The notes beneath the pieces were generated by a model that searched no databases, was not told the origin of the DNA, and saw only the letters and a program-made list of their open reading frames with translations. DNA of 36,777 nt from the NCBI GenBank assembly GCA_947631845.1, contig CANRMY010000024.1, positions 1-36,777 of the forward strand, written 5' to 3'. Position 1 is the stretch's first letter. Each line of letters opens with the position of its first letter. This document shows positions 22,684-30,561 of the stretch, piece by piece. The position numbers were made by a program, and so were the translations under genes. The stretch is from an uncultured Oscillospiraceae bacterium (GTDB lineage: Bacteria; Bacillota; Clostridia; Oscillospirales; Oscillospiraceae).

Positions 22684-23523
22684 TTAATCGGGGACAAAGC
22701 CCTCGAAGATGGGGACCACGCCCTCCGCCTCCAGGGCCCGCATCAGCTGGGGATCCCGGACTGTCCAGCTGACCTCGTGGACGCCGTAGAGCTTTTTCAT
22801 GAGCTTTAAGCTGGGCTGGGACCGGTCGATCCAATTGTAGGCGATGAAGTCCGGCGCGGTGAGGAAGGTGGTCAGCAGATACGTCATGACGGCCCGCTGG
22901 GGGACGTTGAGGCTGGCGGGCTTGGAGCGCAGAAAATTCTCGCTGAGCTGGCCGCGGATCACGTCCGGGTATTTTTTCTTCAGGCACATCAGCACCGAGG
23001 GATCGAAGGACTCCAGGCAGTAGAGGCCCTGGTAGCTTTCGAGCCTCTGCATCACGGCGTCGGTGAGGGCGTCGGCGTTGCCGCCGGCGGTCTTCAGCTC
23101 CACGATCAGCGGCGTTTTCCCCGCAAAGACCTCCAGCACCTGCTCGAAGAGGGGGATCGTCTCGCCGGAGCCCTTCAGGGGGCAGGCGGTCAGGTCCCGC
23201 GCCGCCAGCTCCTCCACCCGGACGGCCTTGCCGGTGACGCGGGCAAGATCGCTGTCGTGGACCACGGCCAGGGAGCCGTCCCGCATCAGGTGGACGTCCA
23301 GCTCCGCGCCGAAGCCGTGCTCCACGGCGGCCCGGAATGCGGAGAGGGAGTTTTCCGGCCGGCCCGCGTCCAGATCGTGCAGGCCCCGGTGGGCGTAGCG
23401 GACCTTTTGCAGGGCCTCCCACCCGGGCATGTTTCGCCGGGGCGTCAGGGCGGCCAGGTACGCCCCCGCTGTCAGCGCTGCGCCGGCGGTCAGTCCGGCG
23501 GCGGCTTTGGAAAGGGATCTCAT
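22684..23523 (-). CDS. Glycerophosphodiester phosphodiesterase
   Basis: This 279-aa GDPD-family enzyme has an N-terminal hydrophobic segment (about 5-27) that may anchor it. Catalytic motifs are AHRGLHD, PENSLSAF, GAELDVHLMRDG and VVHDSDL, then LIVELKT and VSWTVRD. It hydrolyses glycerophosphodiesters to glycerol-3-phosphate and an alcohol, a product that could feed the GlpA-like dehydrogenase encoded at 2823. AGGAGG sits six bases before the ATG. The IS110 element begins only about 77 bp upstream, so the native promoter may have been displaced. A 7-bp stem (23560-23576, CGTGGCC / GGCCACG) lies in the remaining leader. Confidence 0.9.
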   Translation of the reverse strand: MRSLSKAAAGLTAGAALTAGAYLAALTPRRNMPGWEALQKVRYAHRGLHDLDAGRPENSLSAFRAAVEHGFGAELDVHLMRDGSLAVVHDSDLARVTGKAVRVEELAARDLTACPLKGSGETIPLFEQVLEVFAGKTPLIVELKTAGGNADALTDAVMQRLESYQGLYCLESFDPSVLMCLKKKYPDVIRGQLSENFLRSKPASLNVPQRAVMTYLLTTFLTAPDFIAYNWIDRSQPSLKLMKKLYGVHEVSWTVRDPQLMRALEAEGVVPIFEGFVPD

Positions 23524-23601
23524 GGGATTCCTCCTGTTACAATAAATTTACCCCAACTTCGTGGCCGCCGGCCACGGGCGGGGGCATCTCGTTGCCCAAG
23601 C

Positions 23602-23610
23602 TGTTAGAAT
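23602..23610 (+). promoter_or_regulatory. Extended -10 at the IS110 left end
   Basis: TG-T-TAGAAT is an extended -10 element (TAGAAT 23605-23610, five of six) without a good -35 in the inserted copy. If the element circularises at the proposed CT core, the TTGACT at 25155-25160 in the right end lands exactly 17 bp upstream, giving a full promoter. Promoter formation at the joined ends is established for IS621. Confidence 0.6.
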
Positions 23611-23616
23611 GGAGAG

Positions 23617-23793
23617 GCAATGGTCTGGCATTCACCTCCAAGAGCTTCGCGCTCGAAAGAAAGTCAGTCAGCCATCCCTCCCATTCGCGGCGTTCGATTT
23701 GTGCAGGTAGAGTGCCCACACGGTACACTCGCGTCAGCAAACAGATGGAATCGGCAATGGGGAAAGATGGTTCGCCATTGTAATTCTTGTATC
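23617..23793 (+). ncRNA. Candidate bridge RNA of the IS110 element
   Basis: This is the transcript expected from the left-end -10; the 3' end is a guess based on the 177-nt IS621 RNA. Two guide loops are visible. Target loop: CCAAG (23638-23642) equals the left flank next to the core, a small stem follows (GAGC 23642-23645 / GCTC 23651-23654), then GAAAG (23655-23659), the complement of CT plus TTC of the right flank. Donor loop: TGCAGG (23702-23707) equals the right end before the core, then stem GAGTG / CACTC (23710-23730), then AACAG (23740-23744), the complement of CT plus GTT of the left end. The donor loop is closed by CGATT (23695-23699) with AATCG (23749-23753). Confidence 0.6.
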
Positions 23794-23806
23794 GGGAGGA
23801 TTCCAG

Positions 23807-25048
23807 ATGTACGCTGTGGGAATCGATGTTTCCAATGGGAAGAGCACAGTCACTGTGCTCAAATCAAAACGCGAGGCCGTCATGCCCACGTTTGATGTCA
23901 CGCATACCACCGACGGGTTTGGCGCTCTGGTCGAAAAGCTGAACACCCTGGACGGAGAGGTAAGGATCGTCATGGAACACACGGGCCGCTACTACGAGTC
24001 CATCGCCGCCGTCCTGCATAACGCCGGGTTCTACGTCAGCGCCGTCAATCCCCTGCTCATCAAGGAGTACGGCGGCAATAATCTCCGCAAGATCAAGACC
24101 GACAAGGCCGACGCGAAGAAGATCGCACGCTATGCCCTTGACAACTGGGACGAATTGCGTCAATATACTCCTATGGACAACATTCGTTATGAGCTCAAAA
24201 CGCTCAACCGCCAGTTCCAACTGGCCAGCAAGAACCGTACGGCTTGCTCCAACAATCTGGTCGCCCTCATGGAGCAGTCCTATCCGGGTGTGCGCTCCCT
24301 GTTCGACAGCCCTGTCAGGGCGGACGGCAGCCAAAAATGGGTGGACTTCGCGGATACCTTTTGGCATGTGGACTGCGTGGCGAAGCTGAGTCTGAAGGCG
24401 TTTACGGAGCGTTACCGCAAGTGGTGCAAGCGGCACGGCTATAATTTCAGCGAGGGAAAGGCCGCTGAGATCCATGGGAAAGCCAAAACACTGTTCCCGC
24501 TGGTCCCAAAGACTGACGTCGCTAAGCTGATGGTCAAGGAGGCCGTGATCCAGCTCAATACTGTCTCCCGCGCTGTCGAGGTCTTTCGCGCCCAGATGAA
24601 CAGCCTGGCTTCCCAGCTCCCGGAGTATGAGGCGGTCATGGGCATGACCGGCGTCGGACCGTCTGTGGGGCCTCAGCTCATGGCTGAGATCGGGGACCTT
24701 CGCCGGTTCGAGCACCAGAAGTCCCTGGTGGCCTTTGCCGGTACGGACCCAGGCAGGAATAATTCGGGCGCCAAAGAATCCAACTCCGGCAGATCCAGCA
24801 AGCGCGGTTCACCGTATCTGCGCAAGACCCTGTTTGTCATCATGTCGGTCCTGATCCAGCTCCGGCCAGCCGATGACCCTGTCTACCAGTTCCTCGACAA
24901 AAAGCGCTCCGAGGGAAAGCCGTACTACGTCTATATGACCGCCGGCGGCACAAAGTTCCTGCGCATCTACTACGGCAGGGTCCGCGACTGCCTCAAGGAA
25001 AAGGGCCTCTGGGACAAGCCTGCTGAGGATACGGTCAACTCCGACTGA
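23807..25048 (+). CDS. IS110 family DEDD transposase
   Basis: This 413-aa recombinase has an N-terminal RuvC-like DEDD domain with D7 (GIDVSNGK), E57 (VMEHTGRYY), D99 and D102 (KTDKADAKK), spaced as in IS621. The C-terminal Tnp domain has a helix-hairpin-helix-like segment (MTGVGPSVGPQLMAEIGD, about 280-297). The catalytic serine region is FAGTDPGRNNSG, where S320 is the likely nucleophile, followed by SSKRGSPYLRKTLF. The gene appears intact, with GGGAGG before the ATG. IS110 enzymes use a bridge RNA from the same element to choose target and donor. The candidate RNA lies directly upstream on the same strand. Confidence 0.93.
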   Translation: MYAVGIDVSNGKSTVTVLKSKREAVMPTFDVTHTTDGFGALVEKLNTLDGEVRIVMEHTGRYYESIAAVLHNAGFYVSAVNPLLIKEYGGNNLRKIKTDKADAKKIARYALDNWDELRQYTPMDNIRYELKTLNRQFQLASKNRTACSNNLVALMEQSYPGVRSLFDSPVRADGSQKWVDFADTFWHVDCVAKLSLKAFTERYRKWCKRHGYNFSEGKAAEIHGKAKTLFPLVPKTDVAKLMVKEAVIQLNTVSRAVEVFRAQMNSLASQLPEYEAVMGMTGVGPSVGPQLMAEIGDLRRFEHQKSLVAFAGTDPGRNNSGAKESNSGRSSKRGSPYLRKTLFVIMSVLIQLRPADDPVYQFLDKKRSEGKPYYVYMTAGGTKFLRIYYGRVRDCLKEKGLWDKPAEDTVNSD

Positions 25049-25154
25049 CGGCGCCACCCATATATTTCCTTCTTTTGGCTGCCCCTTCAAGGCGGCCTAT
25101 TTGTGTTGCCCATTTTTACCGCCACTCTTTATTCGTATTTTTTCGCGTTTGGGG

Positions 25155-25160
25155 TTGACT
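25155..25160 (+). promoter_or_regulatory. Orphan -35 at the IS110 right end
   Basis: TTGACT (five of six) has no -10 at proper distance in the integrated copy. Joined through the CT core to the left end, it gives TTGACT-17-TAGAAT. The remaining 25049-25202 contains no gene. Confidence 0.55.
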
Positions 25161-25202
25161 TTTTATTTGCAGGCTTTCATTGGAAGCAAAGAGTTTGGTT
25201 TA

Positions 25203-26552
25203 TTAGTCGTCCATGTCCTCGAAGGCGTTCAGGCCGCGCTTGGGCTCGGCCTTCACGTCGCCGTGCTTCACGAACAGCATGGTCACAAAGCTCAGGCCCA
25301 CAAAGAGGGCGGCGTAGGGGAACAGGGTCCAGTAGCCCACATGCTCCAGAAGCCAGCCGGCGATGACGGGGGTGATCACCTGGGCGGCCATGGAGGCGGT
25401 GTAGTAGTAGCCGGTGAACTTGCCCACGTCGGAGCCCTTGCACATCTCCACCACCATGGGCAGGGAGTTGACGTTGATGGCCGCCCAGGCCAGGCCCACC
25501 AGGGCGAAGGCGATGTACATGATGATGTTGATGGAGTCAAAAACGTTGGTCAGGATCCCGCCCAGCAGGAAGCAGACGGCCAGCAGGATGACGCCGCCCA
25601 GAATGGTCTTTTTCCGGCCGATCTTAGAGGCCACGACGCCGATGGGGATGTAGCTGACGATGGCGCCGCCGGTGGCCACCATGAGGCAGGTGGACGCGCC
25701 GCCCAGGCCCTCGCCCATGACCACGTCGATATAGGTGGTGAACCAGGTGGTGACGCCGTTGTAGCCGATGAACCAGAGGGCGATGGAGGCCAGGAGGAAG
25801 CCGAGAGACTTCTTCACCGGCTTCGGCAGGATCTCATTGCCGGAGCCGTCGTCCCGGGCCAGGTCCCACTCCGGGTGCTTCTTCTCCAGAGCCTGGTTTT
25901 CGGAGGCCAGCTTCGGCTCCCGGATGGTGAGGAGCAGGATCACCACCGCCGCCGCCATCAGCGCGGAGACGATGATGAAGAGGGGCTGATAGTCCACGTG
26001 GGCCAGGCCCTCCACCTTAGACTTGGGATAGAGGACGGCCGCCACACCCAGGTAGATGATGCCGCCCACGGCCCCCATCAGGTTGATGATGGCGTTGCCC
26101 TTGGAGCGCAGGGGCTTGGGCGTCACGTCGGGCATCAGCGCCACGGCGGGGGAGCGGTAGGTACCCATGGCGATGAGCAGCAGCCCCAGAACCACCACAA
26201 AGGAGGCGAATTTAAAGGGCGCGGCCTCGGCGGCGTAGCTGTTGTCCAGGATCGGCAGAAGGTTCATGAGGATCACCGCCCCGGCGGTGCCTCCTAAGAT
26301 GTAGGGCATACGGCGGCCCAGCTTGGTGTTCGTCCTGTCGGACAGGCCGCCGAAAAGAGGCAGCAGGAACAGCGCCAGAATGTTGTCCGCGGCCATGATG
26401 ACGCCGGCCAGGGACTCGGGCATGTGGAAGGTCAGCGTCAGGATCTTGGGCACCACGTTGTCGTACATCTGCCAGAAGGCGCTGATGGACAAAAACGCCA
26501 GGCCCACTAAGATGGTGCGCTTGTTGTTGAGCTTCAGTTTTTCCTTTTCCAT
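25203..26552 (-). CDS. MFS transporter, SLC45-like sugar transporter
   Basis: This 449-aa transporter has 12 predicted membrane helices. The signature loop after helix 2 is GGLSDRTNTKLGRRMPYILG, and a large central cytoplasmic loop (about 205-240) carries EKKHPEWDLARDD. These features fit the SLC45/sucrose-proton symporter branch found in Firmicutes. The ATG at 26552 follows GGAGG closely and lies just downstream of its promoter. In-frame sequence further upstream belongs to a shadow of the degV gene. The substrate is probably a disaccharide, but this is not provable here. The IS110 element ends 27 bp beyond the stop, so the native terminator may have been displaced. Confidence 0.85.
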   Translation of the reverse strand: MEKEKLKLNNKRTILVGLAFLSISAFWQMYDNVVPKILTLTFHMPESLAGVIMAADNILALFLLPLFGGLSDRTNTKLGRRMPYILGGTAGAVILMNLLPILDNSYAAEAAPFKFASFVVVLGLLLIAMGTYRSPAVALMPDVTPKPLRSKGNAIINLMGAVGGIIYLGVAAVLYPKSKVEGLAHVDYQPLFIIVSALMAAAVVILLLTIREPKLASENQALEKKHPEWDLARDDGSGNEILPKPVKKSLGFLLASIALWFIGYNGVTTWFTTYIDVVMGEGLGGASTCLMVATGGAIVSYIPIGVVASKIGRKKTILGGVILLAVCFLLGGILTNVFDSINIIMYIAFALVGLAWAAINVNSLPMVVEMCKGSDVGKFTGYYYTASMAAQVITPVIAGWLLEHVGYWTLFPYAALFVGLSFVTMLFVKHGDVKAEPKRGLNAFEDMDD

Positions 26553-26580
26553 GGGTCTTCCTCCTTTTTCCTTTACGATC

Positions 26581-26609
26581 ATAATAACAGGAAAGGAGGC
26601 AAAAATCAA
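26581..26609 (-). promoter_or_regulatory. Promoter of the SLC45-like transporter gene
   Basis: On the minus strand TTGATT (26609-26604), 17 bp and TATTAT (26586-26581), with an extended TG element one base before the -10. Confidence 0.7.
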
Positions 26610-26645
26610 CAACAATTTTGTATAATTTGACTTTATCGAAGCAGT

Positions 26646-26678
26646 AAGACAGGGCGGGAAATTGTCCCACCCCGTCTT
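26646..26678 (-). terminator. Hairpin after the galactoside/degV operon
   Basis: A near-perfect 14-bp stem (arms 26646-26659 and 26665-26678, AAGAC...GGGA / TCCC...GTCTT) lies 18 nt beyond the second degV stop. The U-tract is poor on both strands, so its efficiency is uncertain. Confidence 0.6.
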
Positions 26679-26695
26679 TAAAATAGGCTTTTCGT

Positions 26696-27568
26696 TTACC
26701 ACCCGGCGTCGGCGGTGGAGGCGATGTAGAAGACGCCCAGGGTCCCGGGGCCGCAGTGGATGGTGACCACGCTGCCGGCGCGGGTCACATAGACGTTTTT
26801 GAAGCGGTGGAGCGAGCGCACCCGGTCCGCGATCTCGTCGATGATCTCCTGGGGGAGGCGGCCCGTGTGGGAGATAAACACGTTGTCGGGGTCGGCCTCC
26901 TTCAAAAGCGGCTCCAGATCCTCGTAGTATTTGCGGATCACGTCGGGCTGACGGCCCCGGTACTTCTTCGCCACCCCCAGGCCCCCGTCCTTCACCAGGA
27001 TCTTGGGCTTGATTTTCAGCGCGCCGCCCACCAGCGCCGTGGCCGCCGAACAGCGGCCGCCCCGGTGAATATAGGTGAGCTGCTCGATGACCGAGGTGGT
27101 GCGCACCTTTGGGATGAAGGAGTTTACATAACTCTCCACCTTCCGCAGATCCGTCTCCCCGGCCTCGATGAGGGCGGCGGCCTTCAGAATGAGGAGACCG
27201 ATGCCGGTGCACAGGTTCCTGGAGTCGATGACCGCCACGTGGTCGGCGTAATCCAGATTCTCCGCCGCGATGCGGAAGGTGTTGCAGGAGGCGGACAGGC
27301 CCGTGGAGATGCCGAAAAAGAGCACGTCGTCACCGGCCTCAATAGCCTGACGGAGGGCGTTTTCCGCGTCGCCCACGGAGAAGGCGGCGGTGACGGGGGT
27401 GGTGTTGTGCTCGTCCGACCAGGCGTAAAGCTCGTCGGGGGTGATGTTTTGCCAGTCGATGTAGGTCTTGTCCCCCATGTTCACGTAGAGGGGGATGATC
27501 TTGATGTGGTGCTTTTCCCAGAGCTCCGGGGTCAGGTCGTTGGTGCTGTCGGCGTAGATTTTGATCAT
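26696..27568 (-). CDS. DegV family protein (second copy)
   Basis: This 290-aa DegV protein begins IKIYADSTNDLTPELW, then TTPVTAAFSV, STGLSASCNTFRIA and VIDSRNLCTGIG. QLTYIHRGGRCSAATALVGGALKIKPKI and a C-terminal VVTIHCGPGTLGVFYI follow. It is diverged from the copy at 21629; the HRGGR in place of RAGGR is a visible difference. It starts 9 nt after the GH36 stop, and the ribosome site GAGTGAGG includes that stop codon. It is therefore the last gene of the GH2-symporter-GH36 operon, an unexpected place for a lipid-binding protein. Confidence 0.88.
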   Translation of the reverse strand: MIKIYADSTNDLTPELWEKHHIKIIPLYVNMGDKTYIDWQNITPDELYAWSDEHNTTPVTAAFSVGDAENALRQAIEAGDDVLFFGISTGLSASCNTFRIAAENLDYADHVAVIDSRNLCTGIGLLILKAAALIEAGETDLRKVESYVNSFIPKVRTTSVIEQLTYIHRGGRCSAATALVGGALKIKPKILVKDGGLGVAKKYRGRQPDVIRKYYEDLEPLLKEADPDNVFISHTGRLPQEIIDEIADRVRSLHRFKNVYVTRAGSVVTIHCGPGTLGVFYIASTADAGW

Positions 27569-27577
27569 GGTGAAACC

Positions 27578-29179
27578 TCACTCAAACAGTTCTTTCGGCA
27601 CGGGCAGGGAGTACGCCTCGCCGTCCAGTACAAAGCTTATCATAAAATTGTCTGCGTCGAAACGGACGTTTTGCGCCCGGGTGAGGGCCAGGAGCTCCCG
27701 GTAAAGGCCGCGCTCCTTTTCCGTATAGCCGCCCGAGTCGTCGGACAGGAGCAGGATGCCGCCGAAGAGGGCGTTGATCCGGGCCAGCAGGAGCTTCTGG
27801 TCGTCCCTGAGCTCAATGTTGTCCCGGCGGAGAAAGAACACGTCCGGGTCGCTGAGATAGGCCCGCCCGTTGAGCTCCCGGCGAAACAGGGTGTTGAGGA
27901 TGGCCTGCTTTGTGCTGACGCGCTCCCGGTGACACAGCCGCATAAAGGGCTTGTCGTCCCAGTTAAGGCCCACGTCGCAGCTGACGCGGCAGTATTCCAC
28001 CCGGCCGAAGGCGGGCATCACGGGGACGCCGCACCCCAAGAGGACGGCGGAGCCGCACAGCTTGCGCAGAAGCCCCATAGCCCGGATCATCCGGCCGGCC
28101 CGGGTCTCCCGCTCCGTGCCGAAGGGGGCCGCGCCGTAGAGAAAATCCAGCTTCAGAAGGTCGAAGCCCCACTCCCGGACGACCCGGTCAAAGACCCGCC
28201 GCAGATAGTCGGTGACGGCGGGGTTGTCAATGTCCAGGGACACGAAGCCGCCCCAGTTGGAGCCCAGGAGCCAGGGCTGGCCGTCGACGCGCAAAAGCCA
28301 GTCCGGGTGCTCCCGGACGAGGCGGGAATCGCGTCTGGCCACAAAGGGGGCCAGCCACAGGCCGGCCTTAAAGCCGGCGGCGTGGATCTCGTCTGACAGG
28401 GGCTTGAGGCCGTTGGGGAATTTGGCGGGATCCGTCTCCAGCCAGTCGCCCACCGCCGGTTCCCAGCCGTCGTCGATCTGGAAGAGATCGCCGGGGGAGA
28501 GGAGGGACTTACAGCCCTCCAGATCGGCCCGGATCGTCCCCTCGTTGATGTTCTCATAGCGGTTATACCAGCTGGTGTACCCCCGCAGCGGCGGGGCGGG
28601 CAGGGGCTTCACGCCCAGGGCGGCAAACCAGCCGTCAAAGACCTGCTCCTCACCGCCCCAGGCGGCGTACAGGTCAAAGAGGGGATATTCCCCGCCGCAC
28701 CGGATCCCTTTGCAGTCCCGCTCCAGGCGGAGGCTGGAGAGCCCGGCGTCGTAGGTGAACAGGGTGTAGCCGGGGGCTTCGTCCAGAGACGCCAGGAGCC
28801 GGAAGTCCTGACGCCGCCGGAAATAGCACCAGGAGAAGCCGTGGGTGACCCCCTCCCGGCAGGGGTAGGGGACAAAGTGGTAATCCCCGTACCGGTCAAA
28901 GGCGTACTTCCGGACAGTGGCGGCGGGCACGCGCCGCAGATCCCAGATCCGGTCACGGACGCCGTACTCCGGGCAGGAGGTCCAGGTCTGGTAGCCGTTC
29001 ATGAAGATCCTATCGTACTCCAGCGCCGCCAGGGGGATCCGGGCGGTGACGGAGACGATGACGCCCTCGGGGAGCGGGGCGGAGATATGGACAGAGCTGT
29101 TCCAGTCAAAGGGGACCTGGCCGGAGAGGGTCTCGCGCCCCTCCGCCGTGTCCACCAGCGCTTTCCAGACGATCAGCAT
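27578..29179 (-). CDS. GH36 family alpha-galactosidase
   Basis: This 533-aa cytoplasmic glycosidase has a beta-sandwich N-domain (about 1-190) and a TIM-barrel domain entered at YTSWYNRYENINEG. DLFQIDDGWEPAVGDW, LWLAPFVARRDS and GFDLLKLDFLYGA follow; D345 is the expected nucleophile. VSCDVGLNWDD contains D402, the probable acid/base. The KLDFLYGA form resembles a GH36 subgroup rather than classical KWDMNR melibiases. It should release alpha-linked galactose from melibiose- or raffinose-type sugars. The start codon overlaps the preceding stop by one base (TAATG). Substrate beyond alpha-galactoside is inferred. Confidence 0.87.
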   Translation of the reverse strand: MLIVWKALVDTAEGRETLSGQVPFDWNSSVHISAPLPEGVIVSVTARIPLAALEYDRIFMNGYQTWTSCPEYGVRDRIWDLRRVPAATVRKYAFDRYGDYHFVPYPCREGVTHGFSWCYFRRRQDFRLLASLDEAPGYTLFTYDAGLSSLRLERDCKGIRCGGEYPLFDLYAAWGGEEQVFDGWFAALGVKPLPAPPLRGYTSWYNRYENINEGTIRADLEGCKSLLSPGDLFQIDDGWEPAVGDWLETDPAKFPNGLKPLSDEIHAAGFKAGLWLAPFVARRDSRLVREHPDWLLRVDGQPWLLGSNWGGFVSLDIDNPAVTDYLRRVFDRVVREWGFDLLKLDFLYGAAPFGTERETRAGRMIRAMGLLRKLCGSAVLLGCGVPVMPAFGRVEYCRVSCDVGLNWDDKPFMRLCHRERVSTKQAILNTLFRRELNGRAYLSDPDVFFLRRDNIELRDDQKLLLARINALFGGILLLSDDSGGYTEKERGLYRELLALTRAQNVRFDADNFMISFVLDGEAYSLPVPKELFE

Positions 29180-30561
29180 TATTCAACGCCCTTTCTTGTT
29201 TTCAGCGTCTCGCCGATCTCCTCCACCCGCTTGTCCGTCAGGGTGAATTTCTTTACGAAGAAGAGGAACGCCGTCACAAGCCCGATGATGGGCAGAATGG
29301 TCATGAGCAGGCGAAGACCCGTGATGGTGGAGGCGGACTGGGCGATGATCTCGCCCGTCTCCTCCGCGTCGCCCTCCAGACCGATGAGATCGAGGCCGAT
29401 GCCGGTGATAAAGACGGCCAGACCCGAGGCGGCCTTTACCACGAAGGTCTGCATGGAGAAGATGACGGACTCCTCCCGCTTGCCGGTCTTCAGCTCCCCG
29501 TAATCCACGGAGCTGGACAGGAACACGGTGGTCAGCACCGTGAGGATCCCGTTGGCGGCGAAGACCAGCGCACCGCACACGCAGATGAGCGCCATGTTGG
29601 AGGCGAAGCCCGCGAAGCAGACGGCCAGGATGAGGGCGTAGCCCAGCATGGCGGCGCCTAACGCGCCCTTGAAGATCTGGGTGTTGCCGAACTTTTTACG
29701 GAGCAGGGGGTAAACCGCCATCATGCCTAAGATCTGGAATACGCCGCCCACCATGGTGAACATGGTATAGCTGCCCTTCCAGCCGGAGCCGCCGAAGTCG
29801 TATTTGAAGAAGTAGATGATCAGGTTGCTGGTGAGATAGAGGGCGCTGTTGATCATGAGGATGGCCAGCACCGTGATCATGGCCTGGTCGTTGCGGAACA
29901 GGGCCTTGAACATCTGGGGGATGGTGGAGGTCTCCATGCGGCCGATATCGTGCTCCCGCACCTTCAGGGAGCAGACGATCTCCGCCAGGACGAAAAGGAC
30001 CGCCACAATCAGGGCGAACAGGGCGAAGCCCCGCCGCTCGTTGTCGCCGCCCAGAAATCCCACGGCGATGACCGTTCCCACCTGGATCAGGGCGGAGCCC
30101 ACGCCGGCGCAGGTGCGGCCGATGACCGACAGGTTCTCCCGGTCGGCGGAGGTGGTGGTTATGGCCGGGATCATGGACCAGTAGGGAATGTCCATCATGG
30201 TGTAGGTGGTGCCCCAGAGGATGTAGATGACGGTGAAATAGACCATCATGGCCGTGCCCTGCACATGGGGCGCGGCAAAGAGGGCGTAGAGGGTGAAGGC
30301 GTTGAGGACGGAGCCGGACAGGAGCCAGGGCCGGAAGCGGCCCCAGCGGGTCTTTGTCTTGGCCACTAAGATGCCCATGAAGGGGTCGTTGAGGGCGTCG
30401 AAGATGCGGGCGATCATGAGGATGGTACCCACAAAGACCGAGGACAGATGCAGGATGTCCTGATAGTAGTACATGACATAGGTGGCCGACAGGGCGTATA
30501 CCATGTCCTTGCCCACGGCGCCGACGCCGAAGGCGATCTTTTGCGAGGTTGTCACCTTCAT
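29179..30561 (-). CDS. GPH-family (MelB-like) sugar:cation symporter
   Basis: This 460-aa transporter of the glycoside-pentoside-hexuronide family has 12 predicted helices. Helix-1 and -2 motifs are GVGAVGKDMVYALSATYVMYY and MIARIFDALNDPFMGIL, then KTKTRWGRFRPWLL, with the Asp/Asn residues that bind cation in MelB. The second half contains VDYGELKTGKREESVIFSMQ, a family hallmark. It sits between GH2 and GH36 genes with a 4-nt overlap upstream and a 1-nt overlap downstream, so it probably imports the galactoside these enzymes cleave. Confidence 0.9.
   Translation of the reverse strand: MKVTTSQKIAFGVGAVGKDMVYALSATYVMYYYQDILHLSSVFVGTILMIARIFDALNDPFMGILVAKTKTRWGRFRPWLLSGSVLNAFTLYALFAAPHVQGTAMMVYFTVIYILWGTTYTMMDIPYWSMIPAITTTSADRENLSVIGRTCAGVGSALIQVGTVIAVGFLGGDNERRGFALFALIVAVLFVLAEIVCSLKVREHDIGRMETSTIPQMFKALFRNDQAMITVLAILMINSALYLTSNLIIYFFKYDFGGSGWKGSYTMFTMVGGVFQILGMMAVYPLLRKKFGNTQIFKGALGAAMLGYALILAVCFAGFASNMALICVCGALVFAANGILTVLTTVFLSSSVDYGELKTGKREESVIFSMQTFVVKAASGLAVFITGIGLDLIGLEGDAEETGEIIAQSASTITGLRLLMTILPIIGLVTAFLFFVKKFTLTDKRVEEIGETLKTRKGVE

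Follow-up and report, generated by a model that had tools for sequence, protein, structure and literature searches.

The element and its recombinase

The window, a stretch of 36,777 nucleotides from an uncultured Oscillospiraceae bacterium, very probably carries an intact insertion sequence of the IS110 group and of the bridge-RNA type at 23534-25175, this being the best explanation of the locus as a whole. The element reads CT-GTTACAAT...GCAGG-CT, and the gene at the insertion belongs to the GDPD family (22684-23523, minus strand). Beyond the element, the minus strand of 25203-30561 encodes an MFS transporter, a DegV-family protein, a melibiase-like glycosidase and a second MFS sugar transporter. 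The features of the locus are collected in Table 1.

The reading frame at 23807-25048 scores above the cut-off of each of two Pfam models, DEDD_Tnp_IS110 and Transposase_20, and its 413-residue product matches the sequences of IS621 (8wt6, E 4.1e-18) and ISCro4 (9t56, E 1.8e-17) in the PDB. Residues D7, E57, D99, D102 and S320 align with D11, E60, D102, D105 and S241 of IS621, as read off the printed alignment. The layout is that of the IS110 group, with 273 non-coding bases to the left of the frame and 127 to the right, and no duplication is seen beyond the shared core dinucleotide, a single CT being present in the empty site of two sister genomes. By the position of the conserved fold, upstream of the frame, the element does not fit the IS1111 group, in which the RNA region follows the transposase and the subterminal inverted repeats are long. 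The domains, the homology to IS621, the ends and the empty site together bear out the assignment to IS110 made in an initial annotation of this DNA.

Outside the window's own assembly, the closest relatives bear the label uncultured Oscillospiraceae. At least seven matching places, the window itself included, occur in the window's genome (G000), and at least 23 of 60 relatives hold a match, all 23 in one genus; these are lower bounds because five candidates were scored per genome, and in some of these genomes the match is confined to the conserved flanking gene or DNA.

Table 1. Features of the element and its insertion site (positions in the window)
Feature	Position	Strand	Basis
Complete IS110 element with its two CT cores	23534..25175	+	sibling copies; empty site in G002 and G001
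Left CT core, true left end	23534..23535	+	sibling copies, empty site, letters
Right CT core	25174..25175	+	sibling copies, empty site, letters
Target site: Shine-Dalgarno AGGAGG (with core) and distance to ATG of GDPD-family gene	23523..23535	-	
TACAAT, -10 box of predicted junction promoter when ends are joined	23538..23543	+	
TTGACT, -35 box of predicted junction promoter	25155..25160	+	right end 25155-25175
Predicted bridge RNA, 5' stem-loop CGTGGCC-GCC-GGCCACG	23560..23576	+	pair-keeping two-sided changes, 51-sequence alignment
Predicted bridge RNA, structured part with target and donor loops (approximate limits)	23587..23762	+	consensus fold, single-sequence fold
Internal decoy CTGTTAGAAT, mistaken for left end	23601..23610	+	inside element and consensus fold
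Left target guide (LTG) TCACCTC	23632..23638	+	covariation diagonal, letters
Right target guide (RTG) AAGAAAG, last two letters pair with core	23657..23663	+	covariation diagonal, letters
Left donor guide (LDG) TGCAGG, matches right end	23702..23707	+	letters only
Right donor guide (RDG) AACAG, complement of left-end CTGTT	23740..23744	+	follows left end in three versions
Recombinase, 413 aa, DEDD_Tnp_IS110 and Transposase_20; D7, E57, D99, D102, S320	23807..25048	+	

Ends of the element and the empty site

Sibling copies fix both borders. The motif CTGTTAC[A/T]AT stands at the left end in all 34 left-end rows, corresponding to 23534 in the window, and the DNA differs further out; in more distant relatives CTATT or CTACT replaces CTGTT. 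The right end and its CT core (25174-25175) agree in 28 right-end rows, some of which are one insertion listed twice, and the common end resembles TTGACTTTTTATTTGCAGGCT, whose last base is 25175. The orthologous site without the element in G002 reads GGATCTCATAGGATGCCTC-CT-TTCGTTC, so that a single CT stands between the window's left flank (to 23533) and its right flank (from 25176). The empty site of G001, GGATGCCTC-CT-TTTATGC, agrees with it, and the occupied site in the window reads GGATCTCATGGGATTCCTC-CT-[element]-CT-TTCATTGG.

By these copies and empty sites, the right end at 25175 and the CT core of the initial annotation stand, and the left end moves 67 bp further out. The version proposed there, with an element start at 23601, CCAAG as LTG and a junction promoter TTGACT-17-TAGAAT, draws on segments that do exist (the shared GCT letters at 23600-23602 among them), and its core scores 5+5 nt within the window. 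Its probability is nonetheless negligible, as every left-end row points to 23534, the empty sites of G002 and G001 join at 23533/25174, and covariation places the LTG at 23632-23638. The annotation had itself named an empty site that does not read left flank-CT-right flank at 23600/25176 as grounds for giving up its left end, and the G002 site is of this kind. The error is understandable because the decoy CTGTTAGAAT nearly copies the true left end CTGTTACAAT; the letters of the decoy are largely kept in relatives with a different true left end and donor guide. With the left boundary misplaced, the left flank, the left target guide and the -10 box were therefore wrong as well.

When 14 CT sites in the window were scored for guide matches, 23601 reached 5+5 nt and 23534 reached 4+5 nt. 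A 5-nt LTG match was found at three of the 14 sites, and the chance of a random 5-mer in the searched stretch of 71 nt is 0.06. Fixing the ends by guide matches within the window alone was rejected, since the wrong and the true left cores score alike, and for this reason sibling copies are needed to prove the ends.

RNA region and predicted junction promoter

In the consensus fold of 51 aligned left ends, a 5' stem-loop is accompanied by an outer stem and by target and donor loops. Of its 42 pairs, 16 have changed on both sides at least once with pairing preserved, especially in the 5' stem-loop. In the window, 23549-23790 folds better than shuffled sequences (z -2.87; 1 of 200 shuffles as good), the start at 23549 being taken from the predicted junction promoter. 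This conserved fold and the guide-flank covariation uphold the earlier placement of a bridge-RNA region in the left non-coding end, and the stem said to close the donor loop (CGATT at 23695-23699 with AATCG at 23749-23753) is present. A search of Rfam over 23400-25300, at E values up to 1, returned no family match. One relative, L076, has an RNA region (left end to frame) about 120 bases longer, with the extra sequence in the donor-loop part; in another (L109, 3001-5950), about 2.9 kb separates the start of the frame from the right end, versus the usual 1.3-1.8 kb or so, as if something had been inserted between.

Both donor guides of the initial annotation, TGCAGG (23702) and AACAG (23740), hold good in their letters. 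Moreover, the RDG corresponds to the element's own left end in 72 of 73 cases (CTACT in 37, CTGTT in 28 and CTATT in 7), the single exception being L076, whose left end had been misplaced at the internal decoy; since there are only three versions of the left end, this covariation amounts to few evolutionary events. The LDG segment hardly varies and therefore falls outside the covariation test.

Joined at the true core, the ends read TTGACT-17-TACAAT. Thus, a predicted promoter across the joined ends, its -35 box TTGACT and its 17-nt spacer persist from the earlier description, and the -10 box is TACAAT, at the true left end, instead of TAGAAT. TTGA[C/T]T, a 17-nt spacer and TACAAT or TACTAT occur in 69 of 72 elements; the misses are L076 (misplaced left end), L074 and a third element with a 16-nt spacer. 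A scan for promoters and terminators on both strands of 23450-23830 found none, so no outward promoter is seen from the left end.

Guide-flank covariation

Guides were paired with flanks at 72 of 80 loci and in the window. Six loci were left out of the guide tests for a missing left end or start, mostly at contig ends (L043, L050, L058, L068, L069 and L104), as were L056 (the same insertion as L054) and L080 (an atypical left end); L055 and L076 were additionally left out of the covariation scan, and the guides of L042, L046, L064, L074 and L076 were read by eye. The initial annotation had suggested looking for covariation of guides and flanks in other insertions, and across some 70 relatives the target guides do covary with their own flanks. 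The LTG matches the left flank at a mean of 5.59 of 9 positions against 3.71 when permuted (n=71), and the RTG matches the right flank at 4.41 of 7 against 2.27 (n=64), neither observed value being reached in 20,000 permutations. The excess on the left stops at -7; to the right of the core it stays strong through the fifth base, is small at the sixth (0.34 versus 0.26) and has gone by the seventh.

The guides were located when RNA columns were scanned against 24 flank positions (300 within-clade permutations, 7,893 tests). Without exception, the top ten z values (from 8.8 down to 4.3) fall on two diagonals, RNA 23657-23661 as the complement and 23632-23637 on the same strand. The LTG is thus TCACCTC at 23632-23638 by covariation, and CCAAG (23638), present in its letters, does not hold that role. 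The motif GAAAG proposed for the RTG is retained (copies lie at 23655 and 23659, and also at 23762), with its position settled as the second copy, in 23657-23663. The window's own flanks fit its own guides weakly, at 4 of 7 LTG letters and 4 of 5 non-core RTG letters, which counts against the guided reading.

Shared ancestry and a shared Shine-Dalgarno composition might produce such matches with no RNA-guided choice, and there is something to be said for this: guides with CCTC or CCTTT and similar flanks are common to many elements, and the permuted means of 3.71/9 and 2.27/7 are high. Nonetheless, the LTG excess is weaker yet present within clades (reached in 2 of 20,000 permutations in clade A, 48 of 20,000 in clade B, of seven, and 0 in clade C). 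When each flank was scored on its own guide and on that of the closest relative whose guide differs (median identity of 95% outside the guides), the own guide was better in 54 cases, worse in 5 and tied in 3 for the RTG (n=62), and better in 48, worse in 12 and tied in 10 for the LTG (n=70). Unusual guides in L064, L084 and L100 are also paired with matching unusual flanks. An origin in ancestry and composition is thus very unlikely. It might also be supposed that a guide is copied from the target at insertion instead of choosing it, as guide and flank agree in each copy. Against such capture, all 13 pairs with a four-fold divergence below 0.05 share identical guides yet differ in their left flanks, matches drop to background outside the guide, and the window's own match is incomplete. 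Capture was rejected as the main mechanism on the first two of these grounds, and we consider it highly improbable.

Context of the insertion sites

On the strand opposite to the element, the left flank often presents a Shine-Dalgarno sequence followed by a gene. An ATG 4-16 nt from the core opens a reading frame (at least 60 codons, or 40 if running off the contig) in 43 of 85 unique insertions, the other 42 having no ATG at the tested spacing. By the same ATG criterion, with the same flanks, random sites gave 624/10,080 (6.2%) and CCTCCT sites 29/155 (18.7%); the corresponding counts were 68/508 for CTCCT and 58/763 for TTTCT. With GTG and TTG also counted, at 3-16 nt, the insertions rise to 53/85 versus 822/5,040 random sites, and the control words give 127/508 (CTCCT), 49/155 (CCTCCT), 5/11 (TCCTTTCT) and 8/29 (CCTTTCT). 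The target word accounts for part of the start-codon enrichment, because the sites of the control words are already raised. As a raw count, 70 of 85 insertions have a Shine-Dalgarno-like four-letter word at the core.

The 3' end of the 16S rRNA gene in G016 (L154, G016:C158, 54-68) reads ATCACCTC-CT-TTCTGG. The L037 guides agree with this sequence at all 12 positions, and the window's guides at 11 of 12. As a predicted target, it would set the element against ribosome genes of its host. No insertion in a 16S gene was seen, and just one of 34 genomes of the genus held that 15-base word.

Guide change and apparent retargeting

No part of the RNA varies as much as the guides. Pairwise comparison of nine close copies, one of them partial, gives mean differences of 0.426 for the LTG and 0.306 for the RTG, against 0.053 over 256 other positions; the Mann-Whitney p for this contrast takes the positions to be independent. 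In seven disjoint pairs with a four-fold divergence of 0.03-0.2, 30 of 84 guide letters differ versus 159 of 1,253 four-fold sites, with the excess in the same direction in 7/7 pairs (binomial p 6e-8, treating letters as independent). Raising the limit to 0.3 yields 13 pairs and 61/156 guide letters versus 411/2,290 four-fold sites, 12 of the 13 in the same direction. At large distances (four-fold divergence 0.4-0.8) the guides differ less (0.433 versus 0.529 and 0.602 versus 0.694), a reversal that would follow if the guides kept to a limited range of targets.

It is quite possible, and we propose it tentatively, that the target guides are under diversifying selection and outpace near-neutral codon sites between close copies, the lineage repeatedly reprogramming itself, often to the anti-Shine-Dalgarno word, which is widely available, and, in hosts that possess one, to a genome-specific palindromic repeat. 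Codon bias or recombination might mimic fast guide change, and codon bias could lower the four-fold rate. An origin of guide diversity in recombination or gene conversion between elements, instead of fast point change under selection, appears possible though rather doubtful. Neighbouring guides differ at several letters at once, and each of the genomes G000 and G011 contains more than one version, as exchange between elements would have it; on the other side, a short tract would be invisible because the sequence beside the guides is so similar.

In two sister genomes, G014 and G011, guides agree with palindromic repeats peculiar to the genome. Two copies in G014 have the LTG TTGACCC-CT, one base off the register of the window (register by eye), and both of their left flanks end in TTGACCC-CT. 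Exact copies of GACCCCTTTTTCGGAAAAAGGGG number 58 in G014 and 37 in G016, with none in G000 or G011, and 29 copies of CCCCTTTTTGGAAAAGG occur in G011, with none in G014, G016 or G000. The guides of L143 in G011 fit the CCCCTTTTTGGAAAAGG repeat, its own left flank lying outside the repeat, and L011 in the same genome has a different guide. Right flanks lie in repeats at one of three right ends seen in G014, two of four in G016 and two of three in G011. On these sequences, retargeting to repeats is supported for G014 and G011, and would apply to part of the insertions there, not to every one.

High-copy palindromic repeats differ between genomes of this one genus (L155-L166 in G014/G016 and L167-L170 in G011). 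Matches to repeats of the CCCCTTTTTCGGAAAAAGGGG type number 64 in G014, 42 in G016 and 62 in G021, with none in G000.

Discussion

By its anatomy and its covariation, the element appears to work like IS621. The left non-coding end would encode a bridge RNA with a 5' stem-loop, a target loop and a donor loop, and in the circularised element the right-end TTGACT and the left-end TACAAT would form a promoter that drives this RNA. The donor loop (TGCAGG / AACAG) would read the joined ends, and the target loop (TCACCTC / AAGAAAG) a site TCACCTC-CT-TTCTT, which resembles the anti-Shine-Dalgarno tail of 16S rRNA and would thus be the complement of a gene's Shine-Dalgarno sequence. The recombinase would exchange strands at CT. 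Since the target loop is predicted to read that site and exchange to take place at CT, the element would land just 5' of the Shine-Dalgarno sequence and antisense to the gene. Close copies carry different target guides, each flank tending to follow its own. The expression of the RNA, the circle, the activity of the element and its strand-exchange chemistry are inferred here.

The element and IS621, as the accessible parts of two reports describe the latter (PMC11208160, PMC11208158), have in common a homologous DEDD/S recombinase, a CT core, an RNA in the left end, a 5' stem-loop with target and donor loops, a junction promoter, the logic of LTG, RTG, LDG and RDG, and guide-target covariation. 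In the same accounts, the LTG of IS621 is nine bases long and its RTG four, whereas covariation here extends over seven bases to the left and five to the right of the core; longer RTGs are noted there in some IS621 orthologues. IS621 targets REP sequences, while the usual target here is Shine-Dalgarno-like; the RNA region here is about 270 nt. According to the available text on the seekRNAs of ISEc11/ISXne4 and ISEc21/ISMch6 (PMC11187229), guides changed with changed targets, as they do here, the difference being that here several guide versions occur within one genus and are compared with four-fold sites. Guide-target covariation and natural reprogramming had thus already been published, as far as these sources extend (PMC11208160, PMC11187229). 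Among the literature covered, mostly titles and openings of abstracts, with few subscription papers and no bioRxiv preprints, neither an anti-Shine-Dalgarno-guided bridge RNA nor a test of the rate of guide change was found.

IS900 lands between the Shine-Dalgarno sequence and the start codon, whereas the cut here falls upstream of the Shine-Dalgarno sequence, which stays with the gene. The target motif of this IS110-family element, CATGNNNNNNTCTCCTT, comprises a start codon and a Shine-Dalgarno-like word in the accessible text of PMC8141618, whose reference list includes a 1997 title by Doran naming translation initiation signals as the target of IS900; no bridge-RNA guide analysis of IS900 was found in that text.

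The IS110 group, covariation, reprogramming and the IS900 motif are thus known, and the present element adds a clear natural record of guide reprogramming. It also shows that the ends of an IS110 element cannot be fixed by guide matches in one sequence, and that sibling copies or empty sites are needed. A bridge-RNA explanation is offered for Shine-Dalgarno-directed insertion, published as the IS900 motif, and the natural series of paired guides and targets can be used for testing mismatch tolerance. If it is true that guides outpace near-neutral change, then target choice in RNA-guided elements would be a trait with measurable evolution.
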